A DNA stretch of 64,000 nucleotides from Cytophagales bacterium (GTDB lineage Bacteria; Bacteroidota; Bacteroidia; Cytophagales; UBA9547): contig JAAFIH010000005.1 in NCBI GenBank assembly GCA_013297755.1, positions 1 to 64,000 of the forward strand, read 5' to 3'. The notes below the pieces were generated by a model. That model worked only from the letters and a program-made list of their open reading frames with translations. It was not told where the DNA came from and made no database searches. Shown here in pieces: positions 4,317 to 58,313 of the stretch (position 1 is the first letter of the stretch; the number at the start of each line of letters is the position of its first letter). A program made the position numbers and the translations under genes.

Positions 4317-4664
4317 ATTATGGTTATGCTTTTAAGTATTTTTATAGATTTTAAAGATAAAAAGTAATCAAAATTCATTTTTATTTTTAAAATCGCTTCA
4401 AAATTAATTAATTGTTTTATTAAAAAATATAAATATCAAAATTAAAACAAAAATTAAAAGTTCGTACACTTATTTGAAATATCATATAAGCAAAAATTTG
4501 ATTGTAAAGCCCAAATATATATCATTCAGCTTGTTTAAGGCTCATCTCATTAAATTCTATGGTTTATGTATAACTCCCAAAGGATAAAGGCTTTTTTCAA
4601 AGGACGAGTAGTTAGGCAGGTTTTACTTAAATTTTGATTTTTTATAGCTACTTGAGATAGAAAA

Positions 4665-4853
4665 CAGGGCAAACGCATTTAAGATATTTTAATAAAATTA
4701 CCTATTATTTTAATAACCCCACCCTAAATCCAATTTCTGTTTGATACACAGAATCCAAAGGGAGGGACTTTACATTCAACTATTATAAAAACATTCTTTT
4801 TTAGTAATATTTTACTATTTTAAACTATAATATTTTTAAATGCATTTACCCTG
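4665..4853. mobile_element. MITE family A, copy 1 (189 bp, 9-bp TSD)
   Basis: Non-coding element with terminal inverted repeats: left CAGGGCAAACGCATTTAA, right end complementary to CAGGGTAAATGCATTTAA. It is flanked by a perfect 9-bp direct duplication GATAGAAAA (4656-4664 and 4854-4862). A second, near-identical copy sits at 23651-23840 with its own 9-bp duplication. It encodes no transposase, so it must have been moved in trans. The CAGGG terminus with an 8-10-bp duplication resembles the ISAs1 family, but that assignment is only inferred. The rest of the gap (4317-4655) shows nothing recognisable. Confidence 0.85.
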
Positions 4854-4883
4854 GATAGAAAATTTAAAAGTAAAAAAACTGCT

Positions 4884-5192
4884 CTAATTTTCTTTTTTAT
4901 AAAAAATTACTCCAAAACTATTGATATGTTCCATTAAATCTTTATTATCAATATGAAAGTACAAAGATACATCAAATTTTACAGGTAACAGTAAATCATC
5001 AAGCTCTGTGTCAATTTTAAGTAATTGAGTTAATTCTATATTTTTAGAAATTAAAGTTATGTCAACATCTGAATAGGATTTTTGAGTGCCTTTGGCCCTC
5101 GAACCATAAAGTATTACAGTTTCTATTTCTGGGTGTGCCATAAATACTTCCATAATTTGTTCGTAATGAGATTTTGATAAACCATAGATCAT
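4884..5192 (-). CDS. MNT-type minimal nucleotidyltransferase (MntA/HI0073-like)
   Basis: A 102-residue nucleotidyltransferase of the DNA polymerase beta fold. Residues 30-44 carry the diagnostic GS...SDVD pattern (G30, S31, then D42 and D44 as Mg ligands). The gene directly follows the HEPN-like partner with a 1-bp gap on the same strand, the arrangement known for MNT/HEPN toxin-antitoxin pairs and for the HI0073/HI0074 complex. In characterised MntA/HepT systems the MNT protein AMPylates the HEPN RNase. Whether that happens here is inferred from order and motifs. Confidence 0.85.
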   Translation of the reverse strand: MIYGLSKSHYEQIMEVFMAHPEIETVILYGSRAKGTQKSYSDVDITLISKNIELTQLLKIDTELDDLLLPVKFDVSLYFHIDNKDLMEHINSFGVIFYKKEN

Positions 5193-5193
5193 G

Positions 5194-5670
5194 TTATAAT
5201 AATTTTTGTTGCTGACCAGTTCTTTTTTCTTCCATTTTGAATCTAAACTGAATAAAAAGTGGAAAATAATATTCTATAATTTTTGAGTAAATCTCGTTTG
5301 CTGTCGATTCATTATATGTATGTGTTGTTTTATTTCTACTTTTTATCATTTCCATCCAAGCATCTCCATTTTCGATAATTTTTAAATTTAAAGCCTCTCT
5401 TGTTGCATCCCTGGACCCACCCACTTCATTATTTCCTTGATATTCAGCGTAATCTTTCATTAGATTCCAAGCCATCTCGTGGGTATATTCGAATCTTTGA
5501 ATTAAACCGTCTTTTATGATTTCGTTAAGAATTAAGTTTAAGTCTGAACGAACTATTTGAGTTTCATCGTCTAAATAGTTATGTTTGATATAACCTATAG
5601 CTTGTTCTAATTTATTCAATGCTTTGTTACAGTTAGAAAACCTTTGTTGCCATCTTATCTCTTCCATCAT
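5194..5670 (-). CDS. HEPN-fold nucleotidyltransferase partner (HI0074/HepT-like)
   Basis: All-helical 158-residue protein of the nucleotidyltransferase substrate-binding (HI0074) family, which belongs to the HEPN superfamily. The family's usual EYTHEMAWNLMKDY segment is at about residues 61-74. Near the C-terminus the sequence R112-NKTT-H117 fits the HEPN RNase motif Rx4-6H, followed by a tyrosine. It is first in a two-gene operon with the MNT protein. It may be a toxin RNase neutralised by the MNT partner or a non-toxic nucleotidyltransferase subunit; the sequence cannot decide. Start codons ATG-ATG at 5670/5667 are equivalent. Confidence 0.8.
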   Translation of the reverse strand: MMEEIRWQQRFSNCNKALNKLEQAIGYIKHNYLDDETQIVRSDLNLILNEIIKDGLIQRFEYTHEMAWNLMKDYAEYQGNNEVGGSRDATREALNLKIIENGDAWMEMIKSRNKTTHTYNESTANEIYSKIIEYYFPLFIQFRFKMEEKRTGQQQKLL

Positions 5671-7101: not shown

Positions 7102-7419
7102 TTGAAGTTATGTTTTGAAAAAAAATTACCTCATTTACATCGCTTTCAAATGGTTGATTTTGGTTTTGTTCAAGTCCATTTGTCAAAAAAAGTAGTGAGG
7201 ATTTTTTTGATTGATAAATAACTGGCTGAAGCTTTAATAAATTATACCATTTGTATGTTATGGGCAATATTAAGACAATGTATTATTAAAATGTACTCGT
7301 AATAAAAGTCAATTATTGGCTCAAATAAAAAATAAGTTAAAGTGTTTTAGCAATTATGTAATTTTGGTTAAAATTAACTACCTAAGTTTATATACCTTGA
7401 AAAAGTGCTTATTTTTATT

Positions 7420-7625
7420 CTAAAAACCTCAAAAAATATTATTTAATACCAACACCAATTTATGCAACTGCACAACTTGGCTCAATACTTTTGTTATGTC
7501 CCACTAAACAAAATAAAAGAGGGAAATCTTCAAATTAATTTTGAATTTTAGTAGTTACATTATTTGTATTTTAGAAGTTAATTTTAGTTATGAATACAAG
7601 AGAAAATTATATTTTTATTTGATAA
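7420..7625. repeat. left ~206-bp direct repeat flanking the R-M island
   Basis: Begins with CTAAAAACCTCAAAAAATAT and matches 11505-11710 over its whole length, with only scattered substitutions. The two copies stand in direct orientation around the methylase/nuclease pair. No open frame or clear terminal inverted repeat is visible within it. The preceding stretch 7102-7419 holds no recognisable gene. Confidence 0.85.
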
Positions 7626-7720
7626 TTAAAAAAAATAGCAAAATTGTATTCTTATTGTTATCTTTACTTTTTTACTGAGCAATATATTAAAATGATTTAA
7701 GTGTAAATATTTAAAAATCA

Positions 7721-10700
7721 ATGGATTATAAAATAATGTTTACAAATTTAGGCTTTGAATTCAATATAGATTTGAAGCCTAAGCATATTATTTTTGATAA
7801 GAATCCTATTTTAACTGATAAATTACAAAATTCTATTTTTTATTATAATAATCTAAACCACACAAACACTTCATTCTATTTAATAAATTCAGTTTTAGAT
7901 ATATCTGAAATTGAAGCTGTTAGAAAATATATTTGGAATAAAAACGATGCAGATTTGATTTTTTATTACCCAAACAATGGGCAAGAATTTGAAATGTTGT
8001 ATGCCAAATATTCTCCTGAAACAACTTATAAAGAAAGTGTCTTAGAAACCTTTTCACCATCTCCAAAAGATGCTGAAAAAATGGAGAAAATTAATAAATG
8101 GCAATTTGATAGTGGCGTATTTTGGTTGCATTACCAGTCATTTATAGACAAATCAAAATATAAAGGTATTGACAAAGAATTAGTCAATACTTTAAAAGAT
8201 TTGAAACTAGAACTTTATTATACATTATCTACTTTAATTTTTAATGAAAAAGAATGTAATAAAGTTGTGCAAGCATTGATTGATAGGACTTTATACATAA
8301 AATATTTAGAAGATAACCATATTATTAACTCACGTTTTTATGACTATTATTTTGAAAATCCAAAACTTAGTTATGCAAAATTATTAGAGAACAACTCAAA
8401 TTCAGATATAAATAAGCTCTATGAAAAAATCCATGAAATTTTTAATAATAGTTTATTTGATCAACCAAATATAGAAAATGCCTATTTAACTAAAGATGTT
8501 TGCACTTTAATAGCTTCATCATTCAACTCAAATTTTAAAACAAAACAATTAAAATTATTTGATTTTCAATTTGATGTTTTACCAGTCGAATTTATTAGTT
8601 ATATATATGAAGTTTTTTTATCTGAAACTCAAAAAGCAAATGGAATTTACTATACCCCAAAAAAATTAGCTCAACTAATTGTAGATGAGGTAATTATAGA
8701 TGACAAAATTGGTTCAGTTTTGGATCCATCGTGTGGCTCAGGCATGTTTTTGATTGTAGCTTATCAAAGACTTTTAGAAATTGCACAAAAACAGGGTTTA
8801 GAACCTGAAAATAATATTGAAAAAATAAAATTCAGAACTAAACTTTTAGCTGAAAATATTTTTGGTATTGAAAAAGAACTCACAGCACAAAGATTTACTC
8901 TTTTTTCTTTGTCATTGCAGATTTTTAATGGGATTGACCCAAATGATATTAAAGAATACATTGCAAAGGAACTCAGTAAAAACAAAAAAATTGATTTATT
9001 TTCTGAGTTTTCATTTTTTGACAATATAAAACAAGCTAATGCACTTGCTATTTCTGAAGCACCTTTTGAAGGGTTGAGCTTTTCGTATTTAGTAGGGAAT
9101 CCGCCATTTTTTGAAATTCCCAAAACAGATGATTATAAAAATGAAATTTCATTTTTGGACGCATATAAAGTTGTTTTAAAAAATAATGACAAAGTAATTG
9201 CTAAAAATATAGTTGGAAAAGCTCAAATTTCACAATGCTTTTTTCTAAAAATAAAAGACTGGAGTAATGAAGATACCAGATTTGGGTTTGTTTCAAATAG
9301 TTCTAGCTTTTATAATGAAAAGTCAGATGCTTTTCAAGATTATTTTTATTCTAATTATGGAATAGAAAAAATATATGAACTCTCAAGAGTAAAAAATATA
9401 TTATTTGAAAAAGCCCAAGAAACAGTTGTTTCAATCATTTTTACCAATCATTTTAAAGATAATATTATAAATTATTATTCTTTAGATGTTGGATTGTTTT
9501 CAGAAAAACCATTTGAATTATTGATAATTCAGGAGGATAAAGTGATTGAAATTGACCAAAAGAAACTTGCAGATAAACAAGTTAGATTAAGAGATTTTTT
9601 GGTTGGAAATGAATTTGATAATAATTTTCTAGATAAAATCAAAAACAGTAACTATTTATTAAAATCAGTTCTTAGCTCAAACCAAACTAATTATAGAGGA
9701 TTAGAGCGAATACAAAATGAAAAATTATCAGAGTATTTTAATATAAGTAAGAACAATTTTGCAAATTTAACTAGTAAAGAAAAAAATGACTTACATTTAA
9801 AGTTTGGCTTTGACAATTACTTATCAGATTTTAAAAGTAATAAATTTTATATTCCTTATATTTATTCTGCAAAAAGAATATTCCCATTTAATTATGCTTT
9901 TGATTTTTATATTAATGAATCTAAAATAAATGTAAATAATTTTAGAAGATTCAACATGCTTGATTTGTTTTCTAAAAGAAAGATATTGCTAAATAGATTT
10001 GGTAAATCTATAAATGCAGTTTTTACTGATAATAAAATAGCATTTTCAACATACGTATTTTGTTTAACAATTAAAAATGAAGATTTATATTATTTTATAA
10101 CTGCTATTTTAAATTCCAAGTTATCAAATTATTTTCTTCATAATTTTACTAAAAAAAGAGTTGATTCGAATTTCGAAAATATTGATTTACATGCCCTACA
10201 GAATATCCCAATTCCCAAAGATTTAAACTCAAATTTAGTAACTCAAATATCTGAAATTAGTAAAGACCTATCAGACAGAAAGTTTGAATATTCAGAAAAA
10301 GAGCAAGAGTTAAATGAATTGATTTATGATTTGTATGATTTAAATTATTTGGAGAGACAGCGAGTGAAAGATTATTTTTTACCAAATCCTAAAAAGCCAA
10401 CTAGTCTATCCATTATAAACAACTATAAACAAGCTATATATGATACTTTAGAATTTTATTTTTCAGAAGAAATCACAATTGAACATTTTGAAAAATTTAA
10501 GTTAAGAGTTTTTAAAATTAATTTTGGATTAAATGCTGATGCTTCTGCTCAAAAAACTGGTTTATATACGTTAGAACAAATTTTTAAAGAAAATCCAAAA
10601 GAAAAAATACTGCTTGGCCAAGAGTTTATTTTTAGTGCAACATGTATTTACATTATTAAAAAAGATATAAACCAAAATTGGACAGCAACAAAAGCATTTG

Positions 10701-10744
10701 AAGATGGGCAGCATATTTTAAAATCAATCCAGAATGCAGAATAG
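7721..10744 (+). CDS. N6-adenine DNA methyltransferase of a type II/IIG-like R-M system
   Basis: A 1007-residue protein. An uncharacterised N-terminal region of about 300 residues is followed by a gamma-type adenine methylase core: GIYYTP near residue 309, SAM-binding motif I LDPSCGSGMF at about 334-343, and catalytic NPPF at 460-463. Behind it is a long region like the TaqI/Eco57I target-recognition domain, and a C-terminal segment with the LNELIYDLYDL pattern common in type IIG enzymes. A convincing PD-(D/E)XK site is not seen in the N-terminal part, which suggests cleavage belongs to the overlapping downstream protein. The gene is strikingly rich in Lys, Asn and Ile codons. The long direct repeats on both sides suggest acquisition as a unit. 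A BREX PglX role is unlikely without other BREX genes. Confidence 0.85.
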   Translation: MDYKIMFTNLGFEFNIDLKPKHIIFDKNPILTDKLQNSIFYYNNLNHTNTSFYLINSVLDISEIEAVRKYIWNKNDADLIFYYPNNGQEFEMLYAKYSPETTYKESVLETFSPSPKDAEKMEKINKWQFDSGVFWLHYQSFIDKSKYKGIDKELVNTLKDLKLELYYTLSTLIFNEKECNKVVQALIDRTLYIKYLEDNHIINSRFYDYYFENPKLSYAKLLENNSNSDINKLYEKIHEIFNNSLFDQPNIENAYLTKDVCTLIASSFNSNFKTKQLKLFDFQFDVLPVEFISYIYEVFLSETQKANGIYYTPKKLAQLIVDEVIIDDKIGSVLDPSCGSGMFLIVAYQRLLEIAQKQGLEPENNIEKIKFRTKLLAENIFGIEKELTAQRFTLFSLSLQIFNGIDPNDIKEYIAKELSKNKKIDLFSEFSFFDNIKQANALAISEAPFEGLSFSYLVGNPPFFEIPKTDDYKNEISFLDAYKVVLKNNDKVIAKNIVGKAQISQCFFLKIKDWSNEDTRFGFVSNSSSFYNEKSDAFQDYFYSNYGIEKIYELSRVKNILFEKAQETVVSIIFTNHFKDNIINYYSLDVGLFSEKPFELLIIQEDKVIEIDQKKLADKQVRLRDFLVGNEFDNNFLDKIKNSNYLLKSVLSSNQTNYRGLERIQNEKLSEYFNISKNNFANLTSKEKNDLHLKFGFDNYLSDFKSNKFYIPYIYSAKRIFPFNYAFDFYINESKINVNNFRRFNMLDLFSKRKILLNRFGKSINAVFTDNKIAFSTYVFCLTIKNEDLYYFITAILNSKLSNYFLHNFTKKRVDSNFENIDLHALQNIPIPKDLNSNLVTQISEISKDLSDRKFEYSEKEQELNELIYDLYDLNYLERQRVKDYFLPNPKKPTSLSIINNYKQAIYDTLEFYFSEEITIEHFEKFKLRVFKINFGLNADASAQKTGLYTLEQIFKENPKEKILLGQEFIFSATCIYIIKKDINQNWTATKAFEDGQHILKSIQNAE

Positions 10745-11471
10745 AGAATATATAAAAACTGGAAAATTAATTTCTTTGCCTGATTCGAGAATTAAAACTA
10801 GAGCAATAACAAATGACATTTGGAAAAATCAAGTGTTCTTTCATTTACTAAATTTCTATAAAAATTGTAACATTACTGTTATTCATAAAATTATAGAAAT
10901 AGAAAGAAATAAACCTCAAGCTAGAATTGAAGATAAAATAGGAGTGTTCATTAGAAATACTTTAAGAATTGATATAAAATTCAATTCTCAAGGTTTTAGA
11001 ATTGCAGGTGGTGTTAATAATGATGAAGAAATAAGAGGCTTTTATGATATTTCAATATTTCACAGCGATTGGGTAAACATCGATTTACCAGTTGATTTTC
11101 ATTTTGAATGTAAAAATTTGGATGGTAATCAAGAGCTAGTCAATAAGTATGTTTATTATAATACTTATGAAAATGACAAAAACAACCAAAATATATTTGA
11201 TGGAGGTGTTTTTCGATATTTTAACGGTAAATATGCACAAAATTTAGATTTTGGAGGCATGATAGGGTTTGTATTAGATGGAAAAGTTTTAGACCTAAAA
11301 TCTAAAATCGCCACTAAACTAAATGATAAATTTTCGACCTCCCCAGATGGAGATTTAATAAAAATTACTGATAATTCTATTCAAAACAATGATTTTACTT
11401 TTGATAGCTACCACAAAAGATTCAGTAAAGAGTTTATTTTGCATCATTTGTTATTTGATTTTTCTGAATAA
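10734..11471 (+). CDS. putative restriction nuclease partner with PD-(D/E)XK-like motif
   Basis: A 245-residue protein whose ATG lies 11 bp inside the end of the methylase gene, so the two are translationally coupled. No family is recognised by name. The stretch GFYDISIF (D105) followed about 20 residues later by FHFECKNL (E125, K127) fits the D-Xn-ExK active site of the PD-(D/E)XK nuclease superfamily, with hydrophobic beta-strands around both motifs. Its position after a large adenine methylase makes it the likely endonuclease or nuclease subunit. This is inference from motif and order. It shares the methylase's extreme AT and Lys/Asn bias and ends just before the right-hand direct repeat. 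Confidence 0.6.
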   Translation: MQNREYIKTGKLISLPDSRIKTRAITNDIWKNQVFFHLLNFYKNCNITVIHKIIEIERNKPQARIEDKIGVFIRNTLRIDIKFNSQGFRIAGGVNNDEEIRGFYDISIFHSDWVNIDLPVDFHFECKNLDGNQELVNKYVYYNTYENDKNNQNIFDGGVFRYFNGKYAQNLDFGGMIGFVLDGKVLDLKSKIATKLNDKFSTSPDGDLIKITDNSIQNNDFTFDSYHKRFSKEFILHHLLFDFSE

Positions 11472-11504
11472 AATAATTTTATCAAAGTTTACTAAAATGA
11501 ACTC

Positions 11505-11710
11505 CTAAAAACCTCAAAAAATATTATTTAATACCAACACTAATTTATGCAACTGCACAACTTGGCTCAATACTTTTGTTATGCCCCACTAAACAAAATA
11601 AAAGAGGGAAATCTTCAAAAGAGTTTTGAATTTTAGTAGTTACCTTATATGTATTTTAGAAGTTAATTTTAGAAATAAATACAAGATAAAATTTCATTTT
11701 TATTTCATAA
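11505..11710. repeat. right ~206-bp direct repeat flanking the R-M island
   Basis: Second copy of the 7420-7625 sequence in the same orientation. It begins 34 bp after the nuclease-like gene and ends 57 bp before the stop of the GH27 gene. Differences from the left copy are isolated substitutions, so the copies are old or under no selection for identity. Together they delimit a unit of about 4.1 kb. Confidence 0.85.
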
Positions 11711-11766
11711 ATAAAAGAATTTATTACCTGTAATATTCTTAAAACATTGATAATCAGCAGTTTAAA

Positions 11767-17389: not shown

Positions 17390-19015
17390 TTATTTAAGTT
17401 TATTTTTGAGTTCTATATTTTCGAGTAACAATCTTTGATTTTCATTTTTTAAAGCAATCTCAGCTCTTTTTGTCTCTTCTTGTGTAGCCATCAATTCCTC
17501 CATATTTTGTCTTAACTCTTCTTCTTGGGCGTGCATTTGTTCTGATTTTAGCTGCAAATCATCTACAAGTTTTTTCATTTTTGTTGCATTTGCACTCGTT
17601 TGCAAAACGGAGGCTAAGTTGTCACAAATTTTTTGTATAAACTCAATTTTATGTTTTGGATAAGCATTTAAGCTTGCTAGTTCTACCACCCCAAGCATGT
17701 TTTCATCTATCATGAGAGGCAAAAATAATAGCGTTGTGGGCAATGCTTCGCCCAAGCCAGATGTTATTTTAATATAATCTTCTGGGATTTCTGTGATGTG
17801 GTTGAGTTGTTTTTCTTTGTATGTTTGCCCAACTAAGCCTTCGCCAATGGCAATGCTGACCTCAAAGTGCTTTTTTTTGTTGTAGGCATAGCAAGCCAAC
17901 ATTTCTAGTTTTGTTACTTGTGGGGCTTCCTCGTTAATATAAATTGCACCTTGGTTAGAATCAGTATATTCTATCAACTGAGCCAGAAATCGGTCTGCGA
18001 GTAAGTTTTTATCATGGCCGTTTTGCCTGATTACATCTGCAAAAATGGCCAATCCTTTGTTTATCCAAAATCGTTTTTCGTCTTCGATTTTAAAATTTTG
18101 CAATTCATTTCTCATGTATAACAACGATCGTCCAAGCTCGTCTTTGTCGCTAGCAGGATTGTAGTTGTAGCTATAATCACCCTGGCCTACTTTTTTAGCA
18201 AAAAGACTTGCATTTTTTATATTACCTACAAGAATATTGCTGGCTTCCATTATTTGTCCTACTTCGTCTTTCGATTCTACATTTTGTTCTATTAATTCGC
18301 CCTTTGACATTTGTTGTAGCCGTGTAACTATGGTAGATATAGAGTAAGAAATATAGGAATATATGTTTTTCCACATCAAAAATCCTATGACAATGATTAA
18401 AAACGATATAAGGATAATAATTGTAGTAAGCCTTTCAGAAAGTGCAAGTATTTCGGCCAAATGAATATCTTTGTTTCCAATATAGCTCGCTAAATAATCA
18501 GAATAAGCACCAAAAATTTGCCAAAATTTTTCATTAGATTTTTTTAATTGTTCTTTCAATAAGGTATCTACTGGCTGTTCAAAACCATTTTTATTAATTT
18601 GATATTTCTCAATGATTTGAAATAACTCTTTGGCAGTAAGTAAATATTCTTGGTTTTTTAATAAAACTTTTTTGTGCAAATCATAATTTTTTATACCCAG
18701 TGTATCGCAATGCAATTTAATGATTTTGTGAAAATTCATATAGGCTTCAATATTGTTATTAAAGTTTTGTTTTGTAGAGGTGTCTTTTAAAAAAGCTGCT
18801 TTATTCAAATCTCCAATACTAGAATTAATGCAAGAAACACCTATAAAATGCAATGTTACTGTTGGTTCATTATGTTTATATAATATATCAAATCGTTTTT
18901 TAACCTCCAAACTTTGAAAAAAAACAAACACCGCAAAGCCTGATAATAAAAAAATAATTAAAAATATAACACTTGTGATTTTGCCTTTTATTGAAAGGAG
19001 AAATTGCTTTATCAT
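17390..19015 (-). CDS. membrane HAMP-GAF sensor protein without output domain (paralogue 1)
   Basis: A 541-residue two-transmembrane sensor. Membrane segment 1 is at about 14-32, then a mostly helical extracytoplasmic domain like the four-helix bundle of chemoreceptors (about 33-190), membrane segment 2 at about 197-215, a HAMP domain (YSISTIVTRLQQMSKGELIE onward), a second HAMP-like linker, a GAF domain (about 325-470), and a C-terminal coiled coil with AQEEELRQNMEELMATQEE. No kinase, cyclase or MCP signalling domain follows, so the coiled coil must signal through a partner. It is a tandem duplicate of the gene at 19428-21065. Confidence 0.85.
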   Translation of the reverse strand: MIKQFLLSIKGKITSVIFLIIFLLSGFAVFVFFQSLEVKKRFDILYKHNEPTVTLHFIGVSCINSSIGDLNKAAFLKDTSTKQNFNNNIEAYMNFHKIIKLHCDTLGIKNYDLHKKVLLKNQEYLLTAKELFQIIEKYQINKNGFEQPVDTLLKEQLKKSNEKFWQIFGAYSDYLASYIGNKDIHLAEILALSERLTTIIILISFLIIVIGFLMWKNIYSYISYSISTIVTRLQQMSKGELIEQNVESKDEVGQIMEASNILVGNIKNASLFAKKVGQGDYSYNYNPASDKDELGRSLLYMRNELQNFKIEDEKRFWINKGLAIFADVIRQNGHDKNLLADRFLAQLIEYTDSNQGAIYINEEAPQVTKLEMLACYAYNKKKHFEVSIAIGEGLVGQTYKEKQLNHITEIPEDYIKITSGLGEALPTTLLFLPLMIDENMLGVVELASLNAYPKHKIEFIQKICDNLASVLQTSANATKMKKLVDDLQLKSEQMHAQEEELRQNMEELMATQEETKRAEIALKNENQRLLLENIELKNKLK

Positions 19016-19427: not shown

Positions 19428-21065
19428 TTAAGATTCGTATAACTTCAATCTATTTTTGAGCTCAATGTTTTCTAGTTTTATGCTTTCAAACTCTTTGTTT
19501 CTTACTTCTTCTGACCTAGCAGTTTCTTCTTGTGTGGCCATCAATTCTTCCATATTTTGCCTTAGCTCTTCTTCTTGAGCATGCATTTGTTCTGATTTTA
19601 GCTGCAAATCATCTACAAGTTTTTTCATTTTGGTAGCATTAGCACTCGTAAGCAATACTGATGCTAGGTTATCACAAATTTTTTGTATAAACTCTATTTT
19701 ATGTTTTGGGTAAGTATTAAAACTTGCTAATTCTACCACCCCAAGCATGTTTTCATCTATCATGAGAGGCAAAAATAGAAGCGTTGTGGGCAATGCTTCG
19801 CCCAAGCCAGATGTTATTTTAATATAATCATCTGGGATTTCTGTGATGTGGTTGAGTTGTTTTTCTTTGTATGTTTGCCCAACTAAGCCTTCGCCAATGG
19901 CTATGCTAGCTTCTAGGTGCTTTTTTTTGTTGTAGGCATAGCATGCCAACATGTCAAGTTTTGTTACTTGTGGGGCATCTTCGTTGATGTAAATTGCACC
20001 TTGGTTAGAGTCTGTATAATCTATCAACTGAGCCAGAAATCGGTCTGCAAGTAGGTTTTTGTCATGGCTATTTTGCCTGATAACGTCTGCAAAAATGGCC
20101 AAACCTTTGTTTATCCAAAATCGTTTTTCGTCTTCAGTTTTGAAGTTCTGCAATTCATTTCTCATGTATAGCAGCGATCGTCCAAGTTCGTCTTTTTCGC
20201 TAGCTGGTGTATAGTTATAGCTATAATCACCCTGGCCTACTTTTTGAGCAAAAAGACTTGCATTTTTTATATTACCAACAAGTATGTTGCTGGCTTCCAT
20301 TATTTGTCCTACTTCGTCTTTGGTATCGACATTTTGCTCTATTAATTCGCCCTTTGACATCAGTTGTAATCGAGCGACAATGGTAGATATAGAGTAAGAA
20401 ATATAAGAATATATGTTTTTCCACATCAAAAATCCTATGACAATGATTAAAAACGAAATTAGAATAATAATTGTAGTAAGCCTTTCAGAGAGTGCCAACA
20501 TTTCGGCCATATGGAGCTCTTTGTTGCCCATAAAAGTGTTCATATAATCAGAATAAGCCGTAAAAAGTTTCCAAAATTTATCATTTACAATTTTTAATTT
20601 TTCATTTATTACTGTATCTATTGGAGTTTCAAAAGTCGCCTTTTCATATTTGTATTTTTTTATTATGGCATAAAAATCTTCTACTACCAATAAAAACTCT
20701 TGGTTTTTGATTATTACATTTTGATGTTCTTTGTTATTATCTATACCAAGTGTATCACAATGGAGGTCAGAGGTTTTATGTAAACTCATGTAAGAATCAA
20801 CATAAGAATAAAATTCGCTTCTTGCGTTTGTATCTTTATTAAAAGCAGATTTGTATATAAGTTGGTAACACCAATTCATATCAGATATACCAATAAAATG
20901 GAGTGTTACAGTAGGTTCGTTGTGTTTATAAAGGGTATCTAACCTTTTTTTGACATCAATATTTTGAAAAAAAACAAACACTGCAAACCCAGACAAAAGG
21001 ATAATTATCAAAAATATAACACTGGTAATTTTGCCTTTTATAGAAAGTAGAAATTCTTTAATCAT
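19428..21065 (-). CDS. membrane HAMP-GAF sensor protein without output domain (paralogue 2)
   Basis: A 545-residue paralogue of the preceding entry with the same order: TM1, helical sensor domain, TM2, HAMP, linker, GAF, coiled coil. From about residue 185 to the GAF end the two are nearly identical, while the sensor domain (about 70-180) has diverged strongly apart from short conserved points (NEPTVTLHFIG, LHCDTLGI, LALSERL). The C-terminal coil again ends without an output module. This points to two receptors detecting different ligands through the same cytoplasmic partner. The divergent sugar-kinase gene starts 108 bp upstream on the other strand. Confidence 0.85.
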   Translation of the reverse strand: MIKEFLLSIKGKITSVIFLIIILLSGFAVFVFFQNIDVKKRLDTLYKHNEPTVTLHFIGISDMNWCYQLIYKSAFNKDTNARSEFYSYVDSYMSLHKTSDLHCDTLGIDNNKEHQNVIIKNQEFLLVVEDFYAIIKKYKYEKATFETPIDTVINEKLKIVNDKFWKLFTAYSDYMNTFMGNKELHMAEMLALSERLTTIIILISFLIIVIGFLMWKNIYSYISYSISTIVARLQLMSKGELIEQNVDTKDEVGQIMEASNILVGNIKNASLFAQKVGQGDYSYNYTPASEKDELGRSLLYMRNELQNFKTEDEKRFWINKGLAIFADVIRQNSHDKNLLADRFLAQLIDYTDSNQGAIYINEDAPQVTKLDMLACYAYNKKKHLEASIAIGEGLVGQTYKEKQLNHITEIPDDYIKITSGLGEALPTTLLFLPLMIDENMLGVVELASFNTYPKHKIEFIQKICDNLASVLLTSANATKMKKLVDDLQLKSEQMHAQEEELRQNMEELMATQEETARSEEVRNKEFESIKLENIELKNRLKLYES

Positions 21066-23629: not shown

Positions 23630-23650
23630 TAATCTGTGTAAAAAAATAAA

Positions 23651-23840
23651 CAGGGCAAACGCATTTAAGATATTTTAAATAAAATTACCTATTATTTTAA
23701 TAACCCCACCCTAAATCCAATTTCTGTTTGATACACAGAATCCAAAGGGAGGGACTTTACATTCAACTATTTAAAAAATATTCTTTTTTAGTAATATTTT
23801 ACTATTTTATTCTATAATATTTTTAAATGCGTTTGCACTG
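23651..23840. mobile_element. MITE family A, copy 2 (190 bp, 9-bp TSD)
   Basis: Same element as 4665-4853. Left terminus CAGGGCAAACGCATTTAA and right terminus complementary to CAGTGCAAACGCATTTAA. A perfect 9-bp direct duplication AAAAATAAA flanks it (23642-23650 and 23841-23849). The interior keeps the CCAATTTCTGTT / CACAGAATCC hairpin core. Interior identity with copy 1 is high, suggesting fairly recent mobility. Confidence 0.88.
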
Positions 23841-23901
23841 AAAAATAAATTAAAACTTAAATTTTAAACAAAAATTTACAAAAAACATAAAAATTTCAAT
23901 G

Positions 23902-24971: not shown

Positions 24972-25064
24972 TCAGTGTCGTTTATCTAAGCATTTTAATT
25001 TGCCTCTATCTTAGTCTATCTCCAAAGGAGAATGATAATTTGATTCTGTAAGTAAACGACATTG
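24972..25064. mobile_element. MITE family B, copy 1 (~93 bp)
   Basis: Palindromic non-coding element with left end CAGTGTCGTTTATCTAAG and right end complementary to CAATGTCGTTTACTTACA. The interior has the family's TTGCCTCTATCTTAGTCT and CCAAAGGAGAA segments. Flanks AATAAAAAA (24963-24971) and AAAAAAAAA (25065-25073) fit a 9-bp duplication with one mismatch, though A-richness weakens this. The rest of the gap from 24828 shows nothing else. Confidence 0.75.
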
Positions 25065-25114
25065 AAAAAAAAATAATTTGTATGAAATAAATTTTATTTA
25101 AAAATTTTTTATAA

Positions 25115-26506: not shown

Positions 26507-26598
26507 TCAATGTCGTTTGCTTAAGCATTTTTTATTGCCTCTATCTTAGTCTTTCTCCAAAAGAGAAAGTTAATAGGATTCTTAAGTAAACGATATTG
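26507..26598. mobile_element. MITE family B, copy 2 (92 bp)
   Basis: Left end CAATGTCGTTTGCTTAAG, right end complementary to CAATATCGTTTACTTAAG, with the family interior. Flanks TTATAATTA (26498-26506) and TTATATTTA (26599-26607) agree at 8 of 9 positions, consistent with an ageing 9-bp target duplication. It sits between ispH and rpsP, which are divergently transcribed. Confidence 0.82.
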
Positions 26599-26651
26599 TT
26601 ATATTTATTATAAAAAAATAAAAAAAATAGTGATAGATTAAATTAATAAAC

Positions 26652-28942: not shown

Positions 28943-29034
28943 ATAATGTCGTTTACTTAAATAATTTTTATTGCCTCTATCTTAGTCTTTCACCAAAAGA
29001 GAAAGTAAATCTGATTATTAAGTAAACGACATTG
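28943..29034. mobile_element. MITE family B, copy 3 (92 bp, 9-bp TSD)
   Basis: Left end AATGTCGTTTACTTAA, right end complementary to CAATGTCGTTTACTTAA, with the family interior. It is flanked by a perfect 9-bp direct duplication GTTTATATA (28934-28942 and 29035-29043), which fixes the element boundaries for the whole family. Confidence 0.88.
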
Positions 29035-29111
29035 GTTTATATAAAAAGAAAATGATACAGATGGACAGTAAATCAATTGTAATTATTAGCACAGCTCATA
29101 AATCGATTGAA

Positions 29112-54789: not shown

Positions 54790-54880
54790 TCAATGTCGTT
54801 TACTTTAGCAATTTTTATTGCCTCTATCTAGTCTTTCTCCAAAGGAGAAAGATAATCTGATTATTAAGTAAACGACATAG
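54790..54880. mobile_element. MITE family B, copy 4 (91 bp, 9-bp TSD)
   Basis: Left end TCAATGTCGTTTACTTTAG, right end complementary to CTATGTCGTTTACTTAA, with the family interior. It is flanked by a perfect 9-bp duplication AATTATATT (54781-54789 and 54881-54889). Confidence 0.87.
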
Positions 54881-55093
54881 AATTATATTAAATAAGAAAT
54901 AAATATTGTTTTAATACAAAGACAAGTGTCTAACAAACTAAATTTTGATACCAGATTGATGAGATTACCTATTTTTAGAAAAAATAATCAATTTATGCTT
55001 GATTTAGCAAAAAAAAGATGTCTAAATTTATAAAATTGGACTTTTGTTGGATTAATTGTATATATTATTGCATACATTTAATTGTATGCTTTC

Positions 55094-58140: not shown

Positions 58141-58232
58141 TCAATGTCGTTTACTTAAGCATTTTTTATTGCCTCTATCTTAGTATTTATCCAAAGGAGA
58201 AAGATAAGCTGATTGTTAAGTAAACGTCATTA
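58141..58232. mobile_element. MITE family B, copy 5 (92 bp)
   Basis: Left end TCAATGTCGTTTACTTAAGC, right end complementary to AATGACGTTTACTTAACA. Flanks AATTTTATA (58132-58140) and AATATTATA (58233-58241) agree at 8 of 9 positions. It lies between the two small exported-protein genes. Confidence 0.82.
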
Positions 58233-58313
58233 AATATTATATTATTACTTATTTACAAGAAGTTTTGGTATGATTTTAGTTTGGTCTAAATGTTAAATAT
58301 TACACTTATTAAT

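Follow-up and report, generated by a model that had tools for sequence, protein, structure and literature searches.

An R-M gene pair bracketed by sister copies of a decayed MITE in a Cytophagales genome

Our analysis of the window, by which we mean the whole 64,000-nucleotide stretch of contig JAAFIH010000005.1 from a Cytophagales bacterium, suggests that a horizontally acquired IIG-like R-M pair settled at an intergenic site occupied by a decayed MITE, and that the MITE together with about 75 bp of its flank was left on each side of the pair, a reading to which we assign a probability of roughly 0.55. The methyltransferase would mark adenine target sites of the host, and its PD-(D/E)XK-like partner, read from an overlapping frame, would cut DNA that had been left unmarked. 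Insertion at the decayed MITE would leave the direct repeats as a by-product, either through a long target duplication or through Campbell-type recombination in which a MITE carried by the incoming DNA paired with a resident chromosomal one, which would give the same product, and the perfect stretches of 35-42 bp in these repeats might allow RecA-mediated deletion, excision or amplification of the unit as a whole. The features on which this reading is built are collected in Table 1.

Table 1. Coordinates of the repeat-bounded island and its parts in the window.
Feature	Position	Strand	Details
Left direct repeat (DR1)	7420..7634	.	215 bp
Decayed ~148-bp MITE in DR1	7412..7559	-	nhmmer and alignment; six outermost left-terminal-repeat bases unrecognisable
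DR1 shared flank past MITE end	7560..7634	.	65/75 identical to DR2 flank
1007-aa type IIG-like gamma-class N6-adenine DNA methyltransferase	7721..10744	+	motifs, domains
245-aa partner, probable PD-(D/E)XK restriction nuclease	10734..11471	+	invariant D105, E125, K127
Right direct repeat (DR2)	11505..11719	.	93% identical to DR1
Decayed ~148-bp MITE in DR2	11497..11644	-	nhmmer and alignment; left terminal repeat better kept (TGAACTCCTAAAAACC)
DR2 shared flank past MITE end	11645..11719	.	65/75 identical to DR1 flank

DR1 and DR2 align without gaps and in direct orientation over all 215 bp, at an offset of 4085. The initial annotation had described direct repeats of about 206 bp, which was correct as to their existence and orientation and somewhat short as to their length, the ends lying at 7634 and 11719. 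Identity is unevenly spread (98% at 7420-7530, 96% at 7420-7559 and 87% in the last 75 bp), the perfect runs common to both copies measure 36, 42 and 35 bp, and just outside the repeats identity is ~25%. As had been proposed, the repeats enclose exactly a methyltransferase gene and its overlapping partner, these being the only two ORFs between them and neither of them a transposase or an integrase. In a search of the 4.24-Mb genome, a draft assembly of 70 contigs, the exact 215-bp repeat was returned at two sites only, namely DR1 and DR2. We also considered a structured RNA inside the repeat and rejected it, as the fold is not stable (z -0.5) and 0 Rfam families reached the gathering score. 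Elsewhere in the window, two adjacent paralogous proteins of 541 and 545 aa (17390-19015 and 19428-21065) represent a duplication that is likewise seen as repeats.

The repeats are not sequence private to the island: DR1 and DR2 are decayed copies of a dispersed MITE family. A genome search matched the window repeat to this family at 70% identity, with E values down to 8.5e-10, and in nhmmer searches with a model built from intact members DR2 was aligned end to end (11643-11499 against model positions 2-117 of 119, E 3e-4) and DR1 near end to end (7556-7418, E 0.008). Intact copies are 98-152 bp long and have matching, inverted ends, with terminal repeats of GGGAACTTCTAAAAACC, and identical 4-bp flanks (target duplications) were found at 13 of 17 distinct elements. 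Counted as matching pieces or as end sites, which is not a full census, the family amounts to 67 pieces at E 0.01 or better, and to 60 sites in 4.24 Mb where the end sequence GGGAACTTCTAAAAA occurs with no more than one mismatch, compared with 2 sites for a reversed control pattern. Among nine genomes compared, the MITE is present in its own genome and, with 59 and 4 matches respectively, in the two sister species, and it was not found in the six genomes of other genera. The initial annotation had named a repeat that is dispersed and unrelated to R-M borders as a finding against its reading, and half of this applies: the family is indeed dispersed, but the two sister copies are confined to the borders of the island.

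Several observations on this and other repeats stand apart from the island. One MITE member of ~100 bp lies in frame within the gene of a 1508-aa type ISP restriction enzyme (L143:527-628, equivalent to G000:C67:111326-111427), where it is translated as a peptide around GTSKNLNSFEALPFGEGLGGAFKNEFGAF. In one sister species, a type ISP-like protein (L066:1099-4560) has peptides of the type SPSPxGRAGxG inserted repeatedly, and in-frame repeats may be the origin of these inserts as well. A second type of repeat, starting with AAACAGGGCAAACGCATTTAAG, is found at 4662-4874 and 23648-23861 of the window with 91% identity between its copies; the core of this repeat is recognised by the GGGAACTTC MITE model, from which it follows that families with different ends have a common core. 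Finally, a dispersed repeat of ~108 bp has five copies in the window (24974-25081, 26509-26616, 28945-29052, 54791-54898 and 58143-58250), some of which coincide in part with inverted pairs whose ends are TTAAGTAAACGA-like.

From their alignments, DR1 and DR2 most likely stem from a single local sequence. Over the MITE they are 92% identical, whereas neither exceeds 71% against any other full-length member compared, and past the MITE end they share a further 75 bp at 87% identity, where the best among 20000 shuffles reached 46/75. The left MITE end is better kept in DR2 than in DR1, and the older copy could therefore be either of the two; under a simple target duplication this difference would be unexpected unless DR1 later lost bases. 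The same difference speaks for a local segmental duplication that followed acquisition, in which the R-M pair would already have lain beside a single MITE before a rearrangement or template switch copied the MITE and its flank to the opposite side, as if DR2 were the source and DR1 the derived copy. We consider such a history unlikely, as its second event must happen to bracket exactly two genes and direct evidence for it is absent.

Two other histories appear more improbable still, and to a similar degree. Both MITEs could be the ends of a single composite unit that carries the R-M genes and is moved by an IS transposase in trans, in keeping with a family that is a genuine MITE and has the 4-bp target duplications described above. 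However, DR1 and DR2 are both decayed, the outer terminal bases of DR1 being beyond recognition, the shared tail falls outside the MITE end, and no autonomous element with such ends was recognised, the sole widely spaced inverted pair inspected (1.2 kb, on C36) having no transposase ORF. Alternatively, two MITEs could have inserted independently, one to the left and one to the right of the R-M genes, and bracketed them by coincidence. The family is abundant enough, given its ~60 terminal-repeat sites, and further close pairs on the same strand exist (e.g. C67:111326 and 116326), but the 92% identity of the two MITEs and the 75-bp flank common to both beyond the element make two independent insertions unlikely.

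The initial annotation had seen in the repeats either a duplicated target or substrates for recombination that could delete or exchange the R-M unit. They could serve homologous recombination, and a duplicated target is the best model, short of proof. Neither an empty site nor a genome with a single repeat was found in the two sister species (one genome per species), in which the gene order around TatD and alpha-galactosidase is not conserved, and target duplication and Campbell-type recombination both fit what is seen.

The first of the two enclosed genes encodes a large protein in which motif I (DPSCGSGMF) occupies aa 335-343, motif IV (NPPF) aa 460-463 and a TaqI_C-like specificity domain aa 729-831. 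A family search identified a MmeI-type methyltransferase domain together with the TaqI-like specificity domain, and in PADLOC the type IIG models were the nearest to this protein. With Foldseek, run on a low-confidence model (predicted structures of partner and methyltransferase had pLDDT of 48.5 and 41.3, respectively), the best matches were the adenine methyltransferases CamA and PglX, with MmeI further down. The N-terminal stretch D78...YAK96, at the place where a classical single-chain type IIG enzyme would have its catalytic PD-(D/E)XK, is kept in the five close homologues but not in the four distant ones. A plasmid search with the methyltransferase gave, among the matches listed, only distant methylases below 30% identity.

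The start of the partner gene overlaps the end of the methyltransferase gene by 11 nt. An alignment of nine partners shows that D105, E125, C126 and K127 are invariant, and because this D-(X)n-ECK motif is the pattern expected for a PD-(D/E)XK nuclease, the partner is probably a restriction nuclease, in agreement with its initial description as PD-(D/E)XK-like. No family matches were obtained for it in Pfam, PADLOC, NCBIfam or PHROGs, nor any sequence match in the PDB, and Foldseek with its predicted structure, whose confidence was too low to support the nuclease fold, gave no meaningful match. Within a set of 98 genomes (its own and relatives) the partner was found in its own genome only, the sister species being without it, and it was absent from the GenBank phages searched. 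As it stands beside an adenine methyltransferase in 9/9 loci, the partner represents a candidate nuclease family unnamed by the curated libraries searched.

The base composition of the island sets it apart from its surroundings, and the stronger AT bias originally noticed is borne out. Its GC content is 24.8% against 32.6% in the remainder of the window (32.1% for the window as a whole), the methyltransferase gene and the 245-aa ORF having 24.5% and 26.2%, respectively, and the neighbouring TatD-like and alpha-galactosidase genes 41.6% and 34.2%. In 8/9 of the loci with the gene pair the unit is lower in GC than its surroundings. Near the island lies another AT-rich pair, comprising a nucleotidyltransferase and a HepT-like gene (4884-5192 and 5194-5670), which is possibly a toxin-antitoxin system.

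The gene pair is found in eight other Bacteroidota-type loci with unrelated neighbours. Its close homologues come from two Bacteroidetes MAGs (L067 and L068) and two contigs of a viral collection (L069 and L070), to which four distant loci from a profile search across 395 genomes of the phylum can be added, each with a methyltransferase of ~1000 aa immediately upstream. In all nine loci the two genes either overlap or abut to within one or two bases. One of the viral-collection contigs (L069) has a phage head-maturation protease close to the pair, and at another locus (L088) TnsA-, TnsB- and TniB-like genes lie a few kb away. The pair is conserved and appears to be mobile. At the four closest islands the flanking direct repeats are absent (4/4), so that the unit apparently moves without such repeats, those in the window being a feature of its insertion site there; for the same reason we rejected the view that they form intrinsic termini of the R-M unit. 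That DR1 and DR2 are attachment sites for a site-specific recombinase acting in trans, as their direct orientation and exact bracketing might suggest, is very improbable, given that there is no integrase inside, that the MITE family accounts for the sequence and that these four islands are repeat-free.

A more far-reaching interpretation, which we hold only tentatively and consider somewhat unlikely, is that the pair constitutes an undescribed R-M subtype, in which the nuclease domain of a IIG-like methyltransferase would be defunct and a conserved, so far unnamed PD-ECK nuclease from the overlapping frame would do the cutting in trans, and which would spread within the Bacteroidota on phage-like contigs and in the vicinity of Tn7-like genes, with resident MITEs as its landing sites. 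In its length, its MmeI-type methyltransferase domain and its TaqI-like specificity domain the large protein resembles type IIG/IIL enzymes such as MmeI (PDB ID 5hr4). Unlike in MmeI-type systems, however, a separate, conserved nuclease-like gene follows it here in 9/9 loci, and its own N-terminal region may be an inactive nuclease domain. TaqI-type type II systems have separate M and R genes, and the present pair is similar to these in combining a gamma-class adenine methyltransferase that bears a TaqI_C-like specificity domain with a separate, small nuclease-like gene; it differs from them in that its methyltransferase is large (~1000 aa), the N-terminal region being long, and its partner matches no curated family.

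With regard to the way in which the pair may have settled, R-M genes are known to insert with long and variable target duplications or between direct IS repeats, from which tandem amplification is expected (PMC3031569; PMC1643837). As far as these two papers relate them, the insertions in which R-M genes duplicated a long target (Nobusato et al. 2000) are similar to the present island in having no recombinase inside and long direct repeats of local sequence, whereas here the duplicated sequence is a decayed MITE with its flank and is known without an empty allele. R-M complexes with direct IS repeats (PMC3031569) likewise carry a mobile element in direct orientation on each side, a substrate for amplification or loss, although in our case the flanks are short, non-coding, decayed MITEs with additional shared sequence outside the element. 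If the insertion model is true, the island would be a Bacteroidota case in which a dispersed MITE provided an R-M unit with the target that was duplicated or with a site for recombination, and would link two mechanisms of genome plasticity. For the most part it is an R-M island of the ordinary kind, bounded by repeats, although its partner gene is undescribed, and a further example of a known way in which R-M genes settle.
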